DNA of 64,000 nt, from contig JAFGXL010000015.1 of assembly GCA_016936655.1 (NCBI GenBank), positions 124,001 through 188,000 on the forward strand, written 5' to 3'. Positions 26,289-35,741 of the stretch are shown here, piece after piece (the first letter of the stretch is position 1; each line of letters starts with the position of its first letter). Source of the stretch: Nitrospirota bacterium. GTDB lineage: Bacteria > Nitrospirota > Thermodesulfovibrionia > Thermodesulfovibrionales > Dissulfurispiraceae. Made by a program: the position numbers and the translations under genes. A model generated the notes under the pieces. That model worked only from the letters and a program-made list of their open reading frames with translations, searched no databases and had not been told where the DNA came from.

Positions 26289-27509
26289 CTAACTGCCAGA
26301 GAGGCCAAAGGCCTCATGAAGCACCCTGACAGCAAGCTCAGTGTATTTTGCATCTATAACACATGAGACCTTTATCTCCGAAGTGCTGATCATGAGTATG
26401 TTTATGTTATGGCTAGCAAGAGTCTCAAACATCTGCGCAGCTACTCCGGAATGAGTCCTCATGCCAACTCCAACAACAGAAATCTTCGCAATATCATCTC
26501 TCATATGAGAAGCCTTTGCGCCAAGTGAAGATACTATCTCCTCAGTAAGCTTAAGAGCTTTTTTACTGTCTGTCTTTGGCACAGTAAATGACATGTCCGT
26601 GGATTTGCCATCACCGCTGACATTCTGAACTATCATATCCACAACTATATTTGCATCAGCTATCTGCTTGAATATGCCGGAGGCTATCCCCGGTTTATCA
26701 GGAACTCCCATAATTGTGAGTTTTGCCTGGTTTTTATCATAAGCGACTCCTGATACTACCACCTGCTCCATATCCCTATCCTCCTTGGTAACCAATGTCC
26801 CGGGGTTATCATTAAAGCTTGATCTGACTACAACAGGCACATCATACTTCATCGCGAACTCCACAGATCTCGTCTGGAGCACTTTTGCGCCCAGACTGGC
26901 TAGTTCGAGCATCTCTTCATAAGATATCTTCTGCAGTTTTTTTGCCTCAGGAACAATATTTGGATCTGTAGTGTATACTCCATCCACATCTGTATATATT
27001 TCGCACACATCCGCATTGAGAGCAGATGCTATAGCAACAGCAGAGAGGTCTGAACCTCCCCTGCCCAATGTAGTAACCTCATCATCAGATCCTGTTATTC
27101 CCTGAAATCCGGCGACAACAACAACATATCCTTCATCGAGTGCTTTTTTTGCTTTATCTCCTGTTATCTTCTCTATCTTTGCCTTTGTATGAACTCCGTC
27201 AGTAACAATTCCCATCTGCCTGCCTGTGAAAGCCATGGCCTTGTGTCCCAAGTCTTCTATAGCCATTGCTGTAAGAGCGCTTGTAACACGCTCTCCTGAT
27301 GAGAGTAACAGATCCATCTCCCTTTCATTAGGGTTCGATGACACCTGATTGGCGAGTCCGATAAGCTTGTCTGTCTCGCCCGACATCGCTGATACAACAA
27401 CAGCTACTTTATGGCCTTCCTTGACAGACCTTGCGACTCTCTCTGCAACAGCCTTTATCCTGTCCACATTGGCCACTGAGGTGCCGCCGTATTTCTGTAC
27501 GATAAGCAT
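26289..27509 (-). CDS. lysC: Aspartate kinase
   Basis: The 406-residue protein is a monofunctional aspartokinase: [15 protein letters not shown] at the N-terminus, the kinase core with [14 protein letters not shown], and two C-terminal ACT domains that give feedback control by lysine and/or threonine. It phosphorylates aspartate at the head of lysine, threonine and methionine synthesis. Its ATG overlaps the apgM stop by one base. Neighbours hom, two thrC-like genes and cimA make this a compact aspartate-family operon. asd and thrB are not in the window. Confidence 0.97.
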
Positions 27510-28729
27510 TATACAGAAGCCTCCTTTATCAAATAATCCATAATTGTACAGCCTTTTTCTATGTTCACTCTTTCATGCATCTGCGCTATTGACTCGTTGT
27601 ATCTGATGTATCCATTGTCACGTATCTTTCTGCTGTCAAAAAGCACAAACGGCACAGGCTCCTCAGTATGAGTTCTAACATCTACCGGAGTCGCATGGTC
27701 AGGCATTAAAAGCACTCTGTGCTCAGGAAACCTTTCCCTTAATCCATCGAGCATAGGACCAACTATGCGGGAGTCAAAATCTTCTATAGCCTTTATTTTA
27801 TCCTTAACCTTGCCTGAGTGGCCAGCCTCATCAGGAGCCTCGACATGCAGATATACAAAGTCAACGCTCTCGAGCGCTTTTAGGGCATATTCTGTTTTGC
27901 CTTCATAGTTTGTATCTAACCATCCAGTCGCTCCGGGTACATCCAAAACCTTGAGCCCTGCGTATATGCCCAATCCTTTAGTCAGATCAACAGCAGAGAT
28001 AAGAGCTCCGGTTACTCCATATTTCTCCATGTATGTAGTCATCTTAGGTCTCCGGCCCTGACCCCAAAGCCATATGCTGTTTGCAGGTTTCTTGTCTGAA
28101 TTTATCCTGCTTTTATTAACAGGATGCCCCTGCAGTATATCGACTGACCTTGACATAAGATCTCTCAGCACTTCACTCTTTCTGCCGGAAGGCAAGTATG
28201 GAGCTGCCTCTTTGCCGAGTATGTCATGAGGCGGCACTGTCTTTATGTCTGAATCTCCATTCTTCCATACCATAAGATGTCTGTAACTTACACCTGGGAA
28301 GAATGATATTGTATTTGAACCCAGCTCATCCTGAAGCACAGCTATTATGTCTTGAGCCTCTTCGGTAGTTATATGTCCGCTGCTGTAGTCATCCATTACA
28401 GCCTGGTTGTCTGGACCTGCATACCTGAGGGTGACAAGATTGCATCTGTAGGCTACATCATGATCATCCAGAGAGACGCCTATGCTGGCTGCCTCAAGAG
28501 GAGCCCTGCCAGAATAGTAGTGCGCAGGATCATATCCCATGATGCTGAGGTTAGCCACATCAGAACCTGGATGAAAACCTTCTGGCACTGTTCTTACAGT
28601 ACCTACAACTCCCTGACGCGCAAGCCTGTCCATGTTGTCAGTCTTGGCTTTCATAAGAGGAGTAAGACCTCCCAGGCTCTCCATTGGCCTGTCTGCCATT
28701 CCATCGCCTATGATGACAACATATTTCAT
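27509..28729 (-). CDS. apgM: Cofactor-independent phosphoglycerate mutase (ApgM type)
   Basis: The 406-residue protein belongs to the archaeal-type 2,3-bisphosphoglycerate-independent phosphoglycerate mutase family: an N-terminal metal-binding [16 protein letters not shown], a phosphate-transfer motif around [14 protein letters not shown], and the C-terminal metal site [12 protein letters not shown] and [10 protein letters not shown]. It interconverts 3- and 2-phosphoglycerate. Its lodging between thrC and lysC is a recurring arrangement in related lineages and has led to older annotations as a homoserine kinase-like enzyme (ThrB2 type). Since no thrB is in view, that homoserine-kinase role remains possible. 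Confidence 0.88.
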
Positions 28730-29817
28730 AATATCTTCTCTAATATTTCTCTTGTCGCTTCGTAATCAGCCTTTATCTTTGTAGGCTGTCCTACAGTCTT
28801 GAATGCTGTATCAGGATCTTTCAGGCCGTGGCCTGTAAGAGTGCACACAACTGAGTCGCCTTTGCTGAAAAACCCTTCTTTATGAAGTTTTATAACTCCG
28901 GCAAGCGAGGCTGCTGAAGCAGGCTCGCAGAATATTCCCTCGCAAGAAGCTATCGCGCTATAAGCGGCCAGTATCTCATCATCTGTAACAGCCTCGATTC
29001 TGCCTTTTGACTCCTCTTTTGCAGCGAGAGCGCCCTGCCAGCTTGCTGGGTTGCCTATCCTTATGGCTGTAGCTATCGTCTCCGGCTTCTCTATGGGTCT
29101 GCCGAGTACAATAGGGGCTGAGTTTGCAGCCTGGAATCCGAGCATTACGGGCAGCGAGGATATTAATCCTTTTTCATTGTACTGCTTATATCCCTTCCAG
29201 CAGGCTGTTATATTGCCTGCGTTGCCTACAGGCAGAGCATGGTATTTAGGCGCAAAGCCAAGCTGGTCACAGACCTCAAATGCAGCTGACTTTTGCCCCT
29301 CAATCCTGAAGGGATTTATCGAATTCACAAGTGTTATAGGATAGTTCCTGACAACTTCCTTTACTATATTAAGAGCTTCATCAAAATTACCCTCTATCTG
29401 GAGAACATGCGCTCCATGGACAAGAGCCTGGGCAAGTTTTCCCATAGCTATTTTGCCCTCAGGTATAAGAACAATCGCCTTTATGCCCGCCCTGGCTGCA
29501 TATGCAGCAGCAGATGCGGATGTATTTCCAGTTGAAGCACAGATGACAGCCTTTGCTCCATCTTCAACAGCCTTCGATAGAGCAAGAGTCATTCCCCTGT
29601 CTTTAAACGAACCTGTGGGATTTGCTCCGTCAAATTTTAAATAGATTTTGAGGTCAAGCTCCAGTTTTTTTTGCAGATTTCCGGTCTTGATAAGAGGCGT
29701 ATTGCCTTCATGAAGCGTTATTACAGGCGTGGTTTCAGTTACAGGAAAAAACTCTCTGTAGCGATCGATTACACCCTTCCAGATCGACCCCGAACTTCGA
29801 TATTCTCCAATTTGCAT
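28726..29817 (-). CDS. thrC: Threonine synthase
   Basis: The 363-residue PLP enzyme converts O-phosphohomoserine to threonine. The Schiff-base lysine is in GSFKDRG (K72), and the phosphate-cradling [14 protein letters not shown] follows. The start at 29817 is chosen for the CGGAGAG before it; an upstream in-frame codon would add 18 residues of unlike composition. It lacks the N-terminal zinc-finger-like motif of the second copy at 30524-31756. Its end overlaps the apgM start. Confidence 0.95.
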
Positions 29818-29897
29818 AAACTCTCCGTTATTTATTTTGCCGGAACCGCAAAGACTCAAGGGTCTTGGCATGATGACGGAACCGGCCGACTTATCGT

Positions 29898-30146
29898 CTA
29901 CTGAACGATATCTCCCTCTATAAGTTCTACCTCTACACCCTGGTCTCTCAGATACTGCACACCGTTGTTGACATGCTCTTCCTGACCATCAAGCTCCAGT
30001 ATCATCTCGCCGACAGTATCTGTTATCCTTGCGCGTCTTATATTTGGCATAACCTCAAAACGCTTGGACATGGTGAATATCACCGGTTCCTTGATAAGGT
30101 TCTGGGGAAATGTAAGCTTAACCCTCATTTTCATCTTCTCCTCCAT
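29898..30146 (-). CDS. NIL-domain protein
   Basis: The 82-residue protein consists of a single NIL domain, opening [17 protein letters not shown], the pattern of the domain found at the end of methionine ABC transporter ATPases (MetN) and, in archaea and anaerobes, fused to ferredoxin domains in sulfur assimilation and homocysteine synthesis. There is no ferredoxin part here and no cysteine, so it cannot carry an electron or sulfur by itself. It lies between the carrier protein gene and thrC. Its role, perhaps sensing or binding methionine or homocysteine or acting as an assembly factor, is an inference. Confidence 0.88.
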
Positions 30147-30199: not shown

Positions 30200-30478
30200 T
30201 TATTTGCTGCCGCCTGCTATCGCAGGGATTATAGAGATCTCGTCTCCATCATTGATAAAAGTCAGTTCAGCCTGAAGAAACCTTATATCTTCTTCATTCA
30301 CATATATGTTTACAAACCTTCTTACCTTTCCGTTCTCAGCCAGCCTCTCTCCTATGCCGGGGAACTTTGCATCAAGATCATTGATAATGTCCATAACTGA
30401 TCCTGAGCTGGATTCAACCTCTTCAACTCCATTAGTAAGCTTCTGGAGCGGGGTTGGTATTCTAACTGTTACTGCCAT
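30200..30478 (-). CDS. ThiS/MoaD-like sulfur carrier with a Gly-Gly-Ser-Lys terminus
   Basis: The 92-residue beta-grasp protein belongs to the MoaD/ThiS family: VRIPTPLQKLTNG at the start, KVRRFVNIYVNEEDIRFL and the closing DGDEISIIPAIAGG. These carriers are activated at their terminal glycine by an E1-like enzyme and hold sulfur as thiocarboxylate. Here the Gly-Gly (89-90) is followed by Ser-Lys, so the carrier should be inactive until the last two residues are removed. The JAMM protease at 31996 is the obvious candidate. The ATG follows GGAGGTG. No mob/moa or thi genes are near, so molybdopterin or thiamine use is unlikely. Confidence 0.9.
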   Translation of the reverse strand: MAVTVRIPTPLQKLTNGVEEVESSSGSVMDIINDLDAKFPGIGERLAENGKVRRFVNIYVNEEDIRFLQAELTFINDGDEISIIPAIAGGSK

Positions 30479-30523: not shown

Positions 30524-31756
30524 CTAAACTGCGTTCTTGAGCACCTCTTCAAATGCCTCAAGATTAGGCTTTATGTGATGCACCTTCACTGTCTTTCCAG
30601 CTATAGCCTCCTGTGTCTTGAGTCCATTGCCTGTTATGCATATTACTGTTGTATCGTTTTTGCCTATATAGCCCTGCTGTATAAGCTTCTTTGCAGCAGC
30701 CATTGTGACTCCGCCAGCTGTTTCTGCGAAAATACCTTCAGTGCTGGCCAGAAGCTTTATGCCATCGATGATCTCTTCATCAGATACATCCTCTGCATAG
30801 CCGCCGGTCTCTTTAACAACCTGTGACGCATAAAAACCGTCTGCCGGATTGCCTATAGCTAGAGACTTCGCTATTGTGTTTGGCTTAACAGGCCGAATAA
30901 CATCCGTTCCCTGCTTTATAGCTGCTGCTATTGGCGAACAGCCTGTTGCCTGGGCAGCAAACATCTTGGTATCGAGCTCCTTAATTATGCCGATCTCCTT
31001 AAACTCTTTAAATGACTTCCATACCTTTGTAAGAAGAGAGCCGCTAGCGCATGGAACAACAACATTGTCCGGAGCCTTCCAACCAAGCTGTTCTATTATC
31101 TCAAAACCCTGTGTCTTGGATCCTTCAGCATAAAAAGGCCTTATGTTTATGTTTACAAACGCCCACTTGTATTTATTGGCTATCTCGCTGCAAAGCCTGT
31201 TAACCTCATCGTAGTTGCCGTCAACAGCTACTACATTAGGCGCATATATGAGTGATGCTGTAATCTTGCTCTGTTCAAGAGTAGCCGGTATAAAAACAAA
31301 TCTGGTGAACCCTGCCTTTGCTCCTAGAGCTGATACTGCATGGGCAAGGTTGCCAGTAGAGGCGCATGCTACAGTATCAAAACCAAACTCTTTGGCTTTT
31401 GTCAGAGCAACAGCAACAACCCTGTCTTTAAATGAAAGAGTCGGGTGAGCAACAGTATCATCCTTGATGTAAAGTTCTTTTACTCCAAGCTCTTCAGCAA
31501 GCCTCTCTGCCTTAACAAGCGGCGTATAGCCCGAATTGAGTCCGACCTGCGGATCTCCGTCAATAGGCAGCAGCTCTTTGTACCTCCAGAGGTTCTTGTC
31601 GCGCTTGAGGATATTCTTTTTGGTCAGCACTCTCTTAATCTTCTTGTAATCATAAGAAACCTCAAGTGGGCCAAAACAGAATTCGCAGACATATATGGGA
31701 TCAACAGGATACTCCCTGCCGCATTCTCTGCATTTAAGTCCTCTTACAAAACCCAT
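30524..31756 (-). CDS. Threonine-synthase paralogue with N-terminal zinc-finger-like motif
   Basis: The 410-residue PLP enzyme opens with a four-cysteine motif (C9, C12, C24, C27) not found in the other copy, then a threonine-synthase fold: SFKDR with the PLP lysine at K110 and CASTGNLAHA at 131-140. The overall pattern fits O-phosphohomoserine-type substrates. Proximity to the sulfur carrier, 45 bases downstream, suggests that it uses thiocarboxylate sulfur instead of water to make homocysteine or another amino acid; this is inference. A plain second threonine synthase is the main alternative. The start at 31756 follows AAGGAGGG. Confidence 0.82.
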   Translation of the reverse strand: MGFVRGLKCRECGREYPVDPIYVCEFCFGPLEVSYDYKKIKRVLTKKNILKRDKNLWRYKELLPIDGDPQVGLNSGYTPLVKAERLAEELGVKELYIKDDTVAHPTLSFKDRVVAVALTKAKEFGFDTVACASTGNLAHAVSALGAKAGFTRFVFIPATLEQSKITASLIYAPNVVAVDGNYDEVNRLCSEIANKYKWAFVNINIRPFYAEGSKTQGFEIIEQLGWKAPDNVVVPCASGSLLTKVWKSFKEFKEIGIIKELDTKMFAAQATGCSPIAAAIKQGTDVIRPVKPNTIAKSLAIGNPADGFYASQVVKETGGYAEDVSDEEIIDGIKLLASTEGIFAETAGGVTMAAAKKLIQQGYIGKNDTTVICITGNGLKTQEAIAGKTVKVHHIKPNLEAFEEVLKNAV

Positions 31757-31793
31757 TATCCCTCCTTCACTCCGCATAATACACTCATATACA

Positions 31794-31995: not shown

Positions 31996-32397
31996 CTAAA
32001 CAATCTCAATCGATATTTTTGCCACATCCCCTTCCTTAATCATATAGGCCTTCACGTCAGGACAGCCGGATTCAAGCCCCACTATCAGATATGCTGAATC
32101 ATCATAAAAAGCCAGCTCCTTGTCTTTTTGAGAGGGCTTAGGCTCTGACACAGGATGAGAGTGGAACAAGGCAACAATTTGGAGCCCGTTTTTTCTAATC
32201 TCCTTCATAGCAATGAACTGCTCGGCAGGATCCATCATATAGCTTGTGGGAGAGCTGTCGGAATTCGTCATTTTGTGAATAGCGGTCACCTGCTCTCCGA
32301 TGCCTGCAAGTATTCCGCAGGCCTCATCAGGAAGATGGTCTTTACAGTAAATCAACATCTCATTGTATATGTCAGCAGGTATAAAAAGCTTTTCCAT
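31996..32397 (-). CDS. JAMM/MPN metalloprotease (Mec+/HcyD-like)
   Basis: The 133-residue protein is a bacterial JAMM protease: E25 in DEACGILAG and the zinc motif H79-S-H81-x10-D92 (HSHPVSEPKPSQKD) are intact, so it should be active. Bacterial relatives trim or release cargo from the C-terminus of sulfur carriers: Mec+ removes cysteine from CysO in Mycobacterium, and HcyD trims HcyS in Wolinella. Here the natural substrate is the Gly-Gly-Ser-Lys carrier. It lies 10 bases after the moeB-like gene and before a 239-base gap leading to the thrC paralogue. Confidence 0.9.
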   Translation of the reverse strand: MEKLFIPADIYNEMLIYCKDHLPDEACGILAGIGEQVTAIHKMTNSDSSPTSYMMDPAEQFIAMKEIRKNGLQIVALFHSHPVSEPKPSQKDKELAFYDDSAYLIVGLESGCPDVKAYMIKEGDVAKISIEIV

Positions 32398-32407
32398 AGC
32401 AGAAGTA

Positions 32408-33190
32408 TTAGCCGCGGCCGCTAATTTTTATTGTTGGATTTTCTCCGCATGCGGGGCAATCCCTATTTCTTGCAGCATGAACTCTTCTGAATTCTGATTT
32501 AAGGCCATCATATATTAACAATGTATTTTGTAGAGTCTCGCCTATACCGGTTATAATCTTAAGCGTCTCCATAGCCTGGATTGATCCTATAACCCCTGCA
32601 AATGCCCCAAGTATTCCTGGCTGGCTGTCCAAAGACTTGTCGTAAGGATCCATATCCTCAAAAATGCATCTGAAGCAGTGCCCCTGACCTGGGATTATTG
32701 TAGTTACATGGCCTGTGAATCCGGCAACAGCACCGCTGACAAGAGGCTTGCTCATAAGCACGCATGCATCATTAAGCAGATACCTTGTGGATAAGTTATC
32801 GCTGCAGTCGAGCACAATATCGTGGTCTTCAATAAGAGCGGCAACATTTTCTTTTGTAATTCTTTGCTGTATTGCTAAGAATTCAACATTAGGATTAAGT
32901 GATTTAAAGGAGATCTCCGCAGACTTGGTTTTGCTCATGCCGATACGTTCTGTATTATGAGCGATCTGTCTCTGCAGATTGCTCAGCTCAACAACATCAT
33001 CATCCGCCATACAGATTCTGCCTATACCTGCTGCTGCTAGGTAGTAACCTGCTGGAGAGCCAAGCCCTCCAGCGCCTGCAATAAATACTCTCGACTCAGC
33101 AATCTTCTGCTGACCAGCAAGCCCTATGCCGGGCAGCATCATTTGGCGCTGGTATCTCTGGAGCTGCTCAGAAGTGAACTCCTTATCCAT
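32408..33190 (-). CDS. MoeB/ThiF-family E1-like adenylyltransferase
   Basis: The 260-residue protein adenylates the C-terminal glycine of a ubiquitin-like carrier so that sulfur can be loaded. It shows the nucleotide-binding GAGGLGSP (39-46), LSNLQRQIAHNTE with its catalytic arginine, VLDCSDNLSTRYLLN and two zinc pairs (CFRC and CPAC). No rhodanese domain follows, so the sulfur donor is separate. The start at 33190 has GGCAGGA in front. The partner is most likely the carrier at 30200, because no moaD or thiS of a cofactor pathway is present. It lies 30 bases after hom. Confidence 0.9.
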   Translation of the reverse strand: MDKEFTSEQLQRYQRQMMLPGIGLAGQQKIAESRVFIAGAGGLGSPAGYYLAAAGIGRICMADDDVVELSNLQRQIAHNTERIGMSKTKSAEISFKSLNPNVEFLAIQQRITKENVAALIEDHDIVLDCSDNLSTRYLLNDACVLMSKPLVSGAVAGFTGHVTTIIPGQGHCFRCIFEDMDPYDKSLDSQPGILGAFAGVIGSIQAMETLKIITGIGETLQNTLLIYDGLKSEFRRVHAARNRDCPACGENPTIKISGRG

Positions 33191-33220
33191 AATCCTGCCC
33201 TGCTGCAAATTTTTTAAGGT

Positions 33221-34528
33221 TCAGGACTCGCTACCTTCGACTCTTACAAATAATGTCTTATCAGCAACAATAGGCAGAGCATCTATCTCTTTTACAGCGC
33301 TTAAAACATCGCTCTCTTTTGCACGGTGGGTAAGCACAACCAGAGGCACAGAGCCGCCCTTGCTCCTGCCCTTCTGTATTACGGATGCTATGCTTATATC
33401 TCTGCTGCCCAGTATGCCCGAGATCCTCGAGAGGACTCCAGGCTCATCAAAAGCTGAGAACCTGAAGTAATACATACTCTCTATATCTTCTATGCTCTTG
33501 AGCTTCGCCTTTGCGTTTGCTGCAAATATACCCGGCACCCTTCCTACGCTTCCTGCAGCTATGTTTCGGCTGATATCTACAATATCAGCGACAACAGCGC
33601 TGCCAGTGGGCATATCGCCAGCGCCCCTTCCGTAATAAAGAGTAGAACCTACAGCATCCCCTTCGACAAATACCGCATTGAACGCTCCGTCAACCTTGGA
33701 AATTAGATGCTCATGGGGTATCATTGTAGGATGCACTCTCATCTCAATAGCGCCGTCCGCAGCCTTTGCTATAGCGAGCAGCTTAACCTTGTATCCAAGC
33801 TCTGATGCAAGCTCGATATCCTGAGCAGTAAGCCTGGTAATACCCTCTTTATATACATTTTCATAAGAAAGCTCTATGCCATACGCAAGAGATGAAAGTA
33901 TGGTCAGCTTATGTGCTGTATCTATTCCCTCGACATCAAATGTTGGATCAGCCTCAGCATATCCGAGAGTCTGCGCCTCTTTCAGGGCATCTGCAAACTC
34001 AACCTTTTCATATGTCATCTTTGTGAGTATATAGTTTGATGTGCCGTTTATAATCCCATAGACAGCAAGGATGTTGTTTCCTACAAGCCCCTCCCTCAGC
34101 ACCTTTATAATGGGAATGCCTCCTGCCACAGAGGCCTCAAAGCCAATCTCTACACCCTTTTTAGCTGCAGCAGAAAATATGTCGTTGCCCTCTGTCGCCA
34201 GCAGAGCTTTGTTTGCTGTAACAACATGCTTGCCGTTTTTTATAGCTTCCAGTATGAACTCTTTTGCAGGATGTATGCCGCCCATAAGCTCAACAACTAT
34301 ATCAATATCCGGATCATTCAGAAGAGCTTTGGCGTCATTTATTAAAACCCCGTCAGCCAGTGCAACGCCCCTGTTCCTTGTTGTATCGAGATCAGCGATC
34401 TTCTTTACAGATATGTCCAGCCCAGTCCTCTGCTTTATTGTCTCAGCATTTTCGGACAGCGCCTTAAAAGTGCCTGTGCCGACTGTTCCAAAGCCGATTA
34501 TGCCGATGCCGATATTTTTTTTCGCCAT
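33221..34528 (-). CDS. hom: Homoserine dehydrogenase
   Basis: The 435-residue protein has an N-terminal NAD(P)-binding domain (GIIGFGTVGTGTF), the catalytic domain with NGTSNYILTKM and AEADPTFDVEGIDTAHKL, and a C-terminal ACT domain for feedback by threonine. It reduces aspartate semialdehyde to homoserine, the branch to threonine and methionine. The C-terminal ACT is the common monofunctional type. It lies 31 bases after the aminotransferase and 30 before the moeB-like gene, placing homoserine production directly beside the sulfur-carrier genes. Confidence 0.96.
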   Translation of the reverse strand: MAKKNIGIGIIGFGTVGTGTFKALSENAETIKQRTGLDISVKKIADLDTTRNRGVALADGVLINDAKALLNDPDIDIVVELMGGIHPAKEFILEAIKNGKHVVTANKALLATEGNDIFSAAAKKGVEIGFEASVAGGIPIIKVLREGLVGNNILAVYGIINGTSNYILTKMTYEKVEFADALKEAQTLGYAEADPTFDVEGIDTAHKLTILSSLAYGIELSYENVYKEGITRLTAQDIELASELGYKVKLLAIAKAADGAIEMRVHPTMIPHEHLISKVDGAFNAVFVEGDAVGSTLYYGRGAGDMPTGSAVVADIVDISRNIAAGSVGRVPGIFAANAKAKLKSIEDIESMYYFRFSAFDEPGVLSRISGILGSRDISIASVIQKGRSKGGSVPLVVLTHRAKESDVLSAVKEIDALPIVADKTLFVRVEGSES

Positions 34529-34559: not shown

Positions 34560-35741
34560 CTAAGCGCCTTTTGCTAGCGCCTTCTTGATGCCACTAACAG
34601 CCTGCTTTATCCTATGTTCGTTTTCTACAAGAGCAAAACGAACATACTCATCTCCACCCTCTCCAAACCCAATACCTGGAGACACAGCAACCTTGGCCTC
34701 TGTTATCAGGTGTTTGCAAAATTCAAGAGATCCCATATGTCTGAACTGTTCAGGAATCCTTGCCCAGGCAAACATGGTTGCTTTTGGAGAGTCCACACTC
34801 CAACCAGCCTTGTTAAGCCCTTTTATAAGCTCATTTCTTCTGGACTCATATATGTTTCTAAAATCTTCAACACAGTCCTGAGGCCCTCTCAAAGCAACTA
34901 TGCTGGCTATCTGTATCGGCTGAAACATACCATAATCAAGATAGCTTTTAATCTTTGTAAGAGCACCGACAACTTCTTTATTCCCAACGCAAAAACCTAC
35001 TCGCCAGCCTGCCATTGAGTAGCTCTTAGTGAGAGAAAAGAACTCAACTCCTACATCTTTAGCTCCAGGCGCCTGTAAAAAGCTCGGAGCTTTATAACCA
35101 TCATACACCAAATCCGAATAGGCAAAATCATGTATAACTATCACATTATTCTCTTTTGCAAATTCTACAATTTTTGTGAAAAAATCCAGACCATCCACAG
35201 TCATAGTCGTAGGATTGTGAGGGAAATTCATTATAAGCATTTTTGGTCTTGGCCATGTTGTTTTGAATACCCTCTCCATCTCTTCAAAAAAGTTTATACC
35301 CTCTCCAATAGGGATGCTTCTTATCTCTCCGCCTGCGATAATTACGCTGTATGGATGTATAGGATAAGATGGTGTAGGCGTCATAACAACATCACCAGGC
35401 TGTATAGTTGCAAGAGCCAGATGCGAAAGCCCCTCTTTTGATCCTATCGTTACAACAGTCTCAGATTCTGGATCAAGATCAACATCATAGCGTCTTTTGT
35501 ACCACTCTGTTATAGCAACCCTGAGCTGGGTTATCCCCCTGGAGGCTGAGTACCTGTGATTCTTAGGATTCCGAGATGCCTCACAAAGTTTATCAATTAC
35601 ATGCTGAGGAGCTGGCATATCAGGATTGCCCATACCAAGGTCAATAATATCCTCCCCCCTTCTTCTAGACTCCATCTTCAGATTGTTAACAATAGCAAAA
35701 ACATAAGGCGGCAGTCTTTTGATCCTATTAAACTCAAACAT
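34560..35741 (-). CDS. PLP aminotransferase, AlaC-like
   Basis: The 393-residue class I/II aminotransferase has the PLP lysine in [15 protein letters not shown] and the substrate region NFPHNPTTM. Its best match by pattern is the AlaC branch (alanine or related 2-oxoacid transaminases). In this lineage such an enzyme commonly neighbours hom, and its true amino acid may be alanine, aspartate or another; I do not assign it. The ATG overlaps the last codons of lipA by 8 bases. Confidence 0.9.

Follow-up and report, generated by a model that had tools for sequence, protein, structure and literature searches.

Variable tails behind a fixed Gly-Gly in ThiS/MoaD-like sulfur carriers, and a neighbouring JAMM protease that may trim them

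How can a sulfur carrier be activated on its terminal glycine when its gene runs on past that glycine? The question is raised by a ThiS/MoaD-like sulfur carrier gene (30200..30478, minus strand) in a 64,000-nucleotide stretch of Nitrospirota DNA, hereafter the window. The gene encodes 92 amino acids, with a core (residues 1-90) ending in PAIAGG. A match to the Pfam ThiS model (57 bits, cut-off 22.5, E = 2.9e-15) places the protein in the beta-grasp ThiS family; the match spans residues 5-90, so the family model stops exactly at Gly90. Among solved structures it is closest to 4n6e and 3dwg, both sulfur donors of the CysO kind (CysO 3dwg: E = 2.5e-21); in CysO of M. tuberculosis GG is the C-terminus, the 3dwg chain being matched through its final residue. 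Read directly on the minus strand from 30217 to 30200, the window gene ends GCA GGC GGC AGC AAA TAA, or Ala-Gly-Gly-Ser-Lys-stop, just as an earlier note on this DNA had it, with a tail (30200..30208) made up of Ser91 (30206-30208), Lys92 (30203-30205) and the stop codon TAA (30200-30202). As encoded, the carrier does not have Gly-Gly at its extreme C-terminus, and would have it only once Ser-Lys is removed. Since the terminal glycine is where E1 enzymes of this family act (PMC4326299, PMC3227635), the encoded protein should not be adenylatable on Gly90 and trimming would be required. A frame artefact was ruled out as the source of the tail: a genus-mate ends PAIAGG-SSR, and other members of the family carry -K, -EQ, -SSV and -SII.

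The carrier gene lies in one co-directional block, which is conserved among family members and recurs in rearranged form across the phylum. On the minus strand it comprises an alanine/LL-DAP-type aminotransferase (34560..35741), homoserine dehydrogenase (33221..34528; PRK06349, 556.8 bits), an E1-like MoeB/ThiF adenylyltransferase without a rhodanese domain (32408..33208; ThiF, 8.1e-78), a JAMM/MPN+ metalloprotease (31996..32397), a threonine-synthase paralogue with an N-terminal zinc ribbon (PALP1, 30524..31777), the carrier, a stand-alone NIL-domain protein (29898..30146; NIL, 5.8e-19), the canonical threonine synthase (PALP2, 28726..29871; thrC, 6.7e-99), a proposed homoserine kinase of the apgM family (27509..28729; TIGR02535, 555.7 bits, cut-off 446.3) and an aspartokinase (26289..27509) named by sequence reading and found in the same place in relatives; a citramalate synthase belongs to the same block. 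A NIL domain adjoins the carrier in most loci. This domain is familiar chiefly from the methionine transporter MetN, and may have a methionine-sensing or sulfur-relay role here.

Of 198 genomes sampled from the phylum, 185 have a homologous carrier, and so do many other phyla. We read the carriers at 80 further loci of the phylum and at 80 loci from a cross-phylum search. PAIAGG is near-invariant over these loci, the residue after GG can be any of 16 amino acids, and the tail takes up 0-17 residues or a whole domain. Even close relatives differ, with SK and SSR within one genus, and M, EKAL and EKANSNI within one family. Judged by this comparison, of the kind that the earlier note had suggested as a check, the tails look unconstrained behind a constrained GG motif. 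The proposal that the carrier needs C-terminal processing gains from the combination of a fixed GG, a variable tail and fusions through GG (see below) that would need a cut. The same note's idea of a defined two-residue maturation tail, however, was abandoned: with tails of 0-17 residues even inside families, we reject a fixed signal of this kind, and the comparison lends no support to a purpose-built one. A separate case is the carrier of one genome (G178; L061 / L383), which ends PAISEG, with no GG; JAMM and PALP1 are absent from that genome and a PF01053 enzyme is present, and the protein looks like a decaying carrier.

In several relatives the NIL partner, which is the next gene after the carrier in the window, is fused directly behind the carrier GG. 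Such fusions were seen in Nitrospirota (L100), in Deltaproteobacteria-titled records (L165, L173, L192) and in Omnitrophota (L177, L188), that at L177 being interrupted by a contig end. Four full-length fusions align to the separate carrier and NIL genes of the window, Pfam detects both domains in both fusions tested, and in the structural model of the L188 fusion the low-confidence stretch coincides with residues 88-93, which span the GG. Other carriers are extended in the same way: MoaD-GG-MoaE fusions occur in eight genomes (L317, L321, L322, L328, L337, L338, L354, L374; MoaE Pfam-confirmed in two) and a ThiS-GGG-ThiG fusion in one (G107; L325, Pfam), all of them genomes with a Mec-type JAMM. 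Carriers joined through GG to NIL, MoaE or ThiG are sensible only if something cuts after GG.

The JAMM gene, two genes upstream of the carrier gene, encodes 133 amino acids (Prok-JAB, 2.2e-18) with the full E plus HSHx7SxxD motif. None of the residues E25, H79, S80, H81, S89 and D92 varies among 28 aligned homologues, in keeping with the earlier statement that an intact JAMM is encoded nearby, and all 75 homologues whose motif was inspected have an intact HSHx7SxxD. The predicted structure (pLDDT 96) has the MPN fold (TM 0.91 to 5lda), and its top fold match, 5lda, is PfJAMM1 (Pyrococcus JAMM1) bound to SAMP2, a ubiquitin-like protein. The enzyme is the obvious candidate protease for carrier trimming, and the proposition that the carrier must be trimmed after GG and that JAMM can do it is well supported by these sequence comparisons.

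We called JAMM by a genome-wide Prok-JAB search, doubtful matches being settled by reading the sequences. Counted as JAMM-bearing were G204 and G223, in which JAMM is cut by a contig end, and G212, with a divergent but intact JAMM beside the carrier; other JAB-domain proteins in G225 and G221 were left out of the Mec-type count, as were weak JAB matches (30-40 bits) in the order, which represent a separate paralogue (GDFHSHTQFG...). This second JAB paralogue, about 175-190 amino acids long, with the C-terminus CPFPPGF and atypical motif spacing, is widespread in the window's order (L384-L386, L394, L395). The main carrier is tailed in 87 of 105 genomes with a Mec-type JAMM versus 4 of 22 without (Fisher P = 1e-8), an association that is not significant once Verrucomicrobia are removed (P = 0.29) and that is confounded by loss of the whole system, since JAMM has gone jointly with PALP1 in G142, G158 and G178. 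Untailed main carriers number 18 with JAMM and 18 without, 16 of the latter being Verrucomicrobia or records that group with them, a single clade. The four tailed genomes without JAMM (G122, G198, G205, G238) are all drafts; G122 also lacks the gene that neighbours JAMM in sister genomes, and its ThiS is tailed too. Past GG run 24 of 42 ThiS and 14 of 24 MoaD-like proteins in genomes with JAMM versus 1 of 5 (that of G122) and 0 of 6 in genomes without it (pooled: 38 of 66 versus 1 of 11, P = 0.003).

The earlier note had named homologues that end at GG despite a JAMM partner as one case that would refute its reading. Such carriers exist (G009, G055, G145, G017, G157, G128, G162 and others); trimming itself is not thereby refuted, because in most of these genomes where other carriers were seen, the ThiS or MoaD is tailed. 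G055 and G145 both have a main carrier that stops at GG, but their ThiS finishes in GGG-AR and their MoaD in GG-SEGC or GG-SR; an untailed main carrier beside JAMM is therefore no evidence that there is nothing to trim. What these genomes do argue against is that JAMM is kept everywhere for trimming the main carrier, and a need for JAMM solely on that account was rejected. JAMM probably also releases the product or serves other carriers; by analogy with Mec+, product release is the likely second job, and G128 and G162, where JAMM is present and only GG-ending carriers were seen, suggest such a job as well. Verrucomicrobia keep PALP1, carrier and NIL, with GG-ending carriers, most of them without a Mec-type JAMM, and no substitute protease gene was found next to this triad. 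They suggest that release can proceed free of JAMM, so trimming may be the step that strictly needs JAMM where tails exist.

What might the carrier be for? The window genome has no PF01053 (Cys/Met-metabolism PLP) enzyme at 1e-40 (best match E = 1.4e-8, partial and aminotransferase-like), and this PF01053 search recovered no transsulfuration enzymes; DUF39 (PF01837) is absent by profile search, and canonical full-length MetH was not found in this genome, which has partial domain matches only. In the phylum sample, 138 genomes are without PF01053 and 129 of these have the carrier. Among the 13 carrier-less genomes, four have PF01053 (G138, G024, G068, G076), six fall in one family whose single tested member (G003) has DUF39, and the remaining three (G186, G018, G064) have no PF01053 enzyme, G186 being without DUF39 as well. 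PF01053 is present in G142 and G178, which share a family, and in G158, a member of a different family with a divergent carrier that stops at GG. The make-up of the operon and the lack of DUF39 and of transsulfuration enzymes suggest a pathway to homocysteine, and the carrier is probably the sulfur carrier for making this methionine precursor with an enzyme derived from threonine synthase.

Separate CysK- and CysM-like enzymes, away from the carrier locus, and two TrpB-like genes (named by sequence reading) are present in the window genome, which leaves PALP1 and PALP2 as candidate sulfur acceptors. The threonine-synthase signatures STGNTSA and PTGSFKDR are shared in the PALP2 group and missing from PALP1, so PALP1 is the likely acceptor and is proposed to be a carrier-dependent homocysteine synthase. 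At every locus where we read the motif, members of the PALP1 group show STGNLA and P[TS][LFWMC]SFKDR (PTLSFKDR in the window); their zinc ribbon is consistent across loci, and PALP1 still passes the general thrC model TIGR00260. With a homoserine kinase gene in the block, O-phosphohomoserine is the likely PALP1 substrate. No description of a homocysteine route through a threonine-synthase relative and a carrier was found in the open-access literature searched. Elsewhere, an Aquificaceae-titled locus (L201, G234) has a PALP1-carrier pair with the tail GG-R, a possible lead on its homocysteine source; Aquifex has been listed among organisms without a known homocysteine route (PMC5764234).

We infer the following sequence of events. 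The carrier would be synthesised as a precursor, JAMM would cleave behind Gly90 to take off Ser-Lys, and the E1 would adenylate Gly90 on the way to the thiocarboxylate. PALP1 would then transfer the carrier sulfur to an intermediate that is bound to PLP and derives from an ester of homoserine, O-phosphohomoserine being the likeliest, and JAMM would probably also hydrolyse the carrier-amino-acid adduct, giving free homocysteine and regenerating GG. With such a protease present, the position of the stop codon would be nearly free to drift, which would account for tails of any length, for the NIL, MoaE and ThiG fusions, and for tailed ThiS and MoaD in the same genomes. We hold precursor trimming by JAMM, sulfur transfer by PALP1 and stop-codon drift to be, jointly, the best explanation, and a decidedly probable one.

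The alternatives differ in what they take JAMM, the tail or the sulfur to be for. That the tail is simply retained as part of the working protein is scarcely credible: nothing speaks for it beyond its presence in the gene, neither its length nor its sequence is conserved, orthologues that stop at GG are common, and the E1s of this family use a terminal glycine (PMC4326299, PMC3227635). Hardly more probable is a SAMP-like protein modifier with JAMM as its deconjugase. Sub-threshold matches of carrier and JAMM to the SAMP1 and desampylase models, and the fold match to PfJAMM1 with SAMP2, would fit this reading, yet the operon is one of amino-acid synthesis, no E2-like gene was seen, and the solved structures that match the carrier best are sulfur donors of the CysO type.

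Two further readings carry some weight while remaining unlikely. JAMM could be kept mainly for releasing the amino acid from the carrier, with the tail as a minor substrate or left to another protease; we would give this a real but minor chance. It agrees with the many GG-ending carriers that adjoin a catalytically intact JAMM, with G128 and G162, where no tailed carrier was seen, with the joint loss of JAMM and PALP1 in G142, and with M. tuberculosis, where CysO ends at GG and CysO-cysteine is hydrolysed by Mec+ (PMC3227635). It sits badly with the Verrucomicrobia, which retain PALP1-carrier-NIL although, in most of them, neither a Mec-type JAMM nor a substitute gene alongside was found, and with the fused carriers, which need a GG-specific cut. 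The thiocarboxylate might instead feed cysteine or threonine-linked chemistry, as the kinship of the carrier to CysO and of PALP1 to threonine synthase would allow. This is improbable, since the genome is already supplied with CysK- and CysM-like enzymes besides a canonical ThrC, aspartokinase and homoserine genes stand in the operon, and the other homocysteine sources searched for (PF01053, DUF39) are missing.

Trimming by JAMM within a homocysteine pathway being the preferred reading, a broader one can be built on it: a single JAMM may act as general C-terminal maturase of the homocysteine carrier, ThiS and MoaD, with stop codons freed from selection and carrier fusions, especially carrier-NIL, arising repeatedly, all in the service of an undescribed homocysteine route that combines a threonine-synthase-derived enzyme, a protein thiocarboxylate and O-phosphohomoserine. 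We regard this wider proposal as evenly balanced. Much of Nitrospirota, together with Omnitrophota, Verrucomicrobia, Nitrospinota and other groups with carrier/PALP1 relatives, may make methionine through this module, which would be hidden from annotation because its key enzyme is named threonine synthase. The variable tails would also amount to a natural experiment on JAMM, the C-terminus being free where the protease is present and mostly pinned at Gly-Gly where it is absent, and the carrier fusions parallel ubiquitin, itself produced fused to other proteins.

Trimming of this kind is already known (QbsE, HcyS, MoaX), and it is the combination found here that is new. For the HcyS-HcyD-HcyF homocysteine pathway of Wolinella succinogenes, PMC5764234 cites Krishnamoorthy and Begley (2011). 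In that pathway HcyS reportedly has residue(s) after GG that are trimmed. The two systems are alike in the residue(s) beyond the carrier GG, the JAMM, the E1 and the methionine pathway; they differ in that the Wolinella acceptor is a PF01053 O-acetylhomoserine sulfhydrylase, of which the window genome has none, the window carrier being flanked by a threonine-synthase paralogue and a NIL protein. In thioquinolobactin synthesis, a dipeptide behind the GG of QbsE is removed by the JAMM protein QbsD ahead of sulfuration. A dipeptide behind GG and a JAMM are thus shared with QbsE-QbsD, whereas the pathway is that of a siderophore and the acceptor is another; operons of the QbsE-QbsD type are covered in PMC1779556.

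MoaD-MoaE fusions are cut as well, by DRJAMM in D. radiodurans (PMC8832034) and, in M. tuberculosis MoaX, at Gly82-Ser83 by a protease unnamed in that paper (PMC4326299); the likeness is a GG-specific cut of a C-terminal extension, the difference that molybdopterin synthase, and no amino-acid pathway, is served. CysO-CysM-Mec+ of M. tuberculosis, in which Mec+ hydrolyses CysO-cysteine (PMC3227635), offers the closest solved carrier, a product-releasing JAMM and a PLP enzyme of fold type II that uses a phosphorylated substrate. It differs in that CysO has nothing beyond GG, that O-phosphoserine is turned into cysteine, and that CysM is no zinc-ribbon threonine-synthase relative; in the window no CysM-type cysteine synthase adjoins the carrier, the neighbouring PLP enzyme being a ThrC paralogue. 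The catalogue of ThiS/MoaD-E1-JAB operons by Iyer et al. (2006; PMC1779556) includes variants that also encode cysteine synthase or O-acetylhomoserine sulfhydrylase, and a search of its text gave no 'threonine synthase'; the authors proposed that JAB releases fused ThiS or MoaD and left the role of JAB in the operons unresolved. The locus described here is built on the same ThiS/MoaD-E1-JAB core triad.
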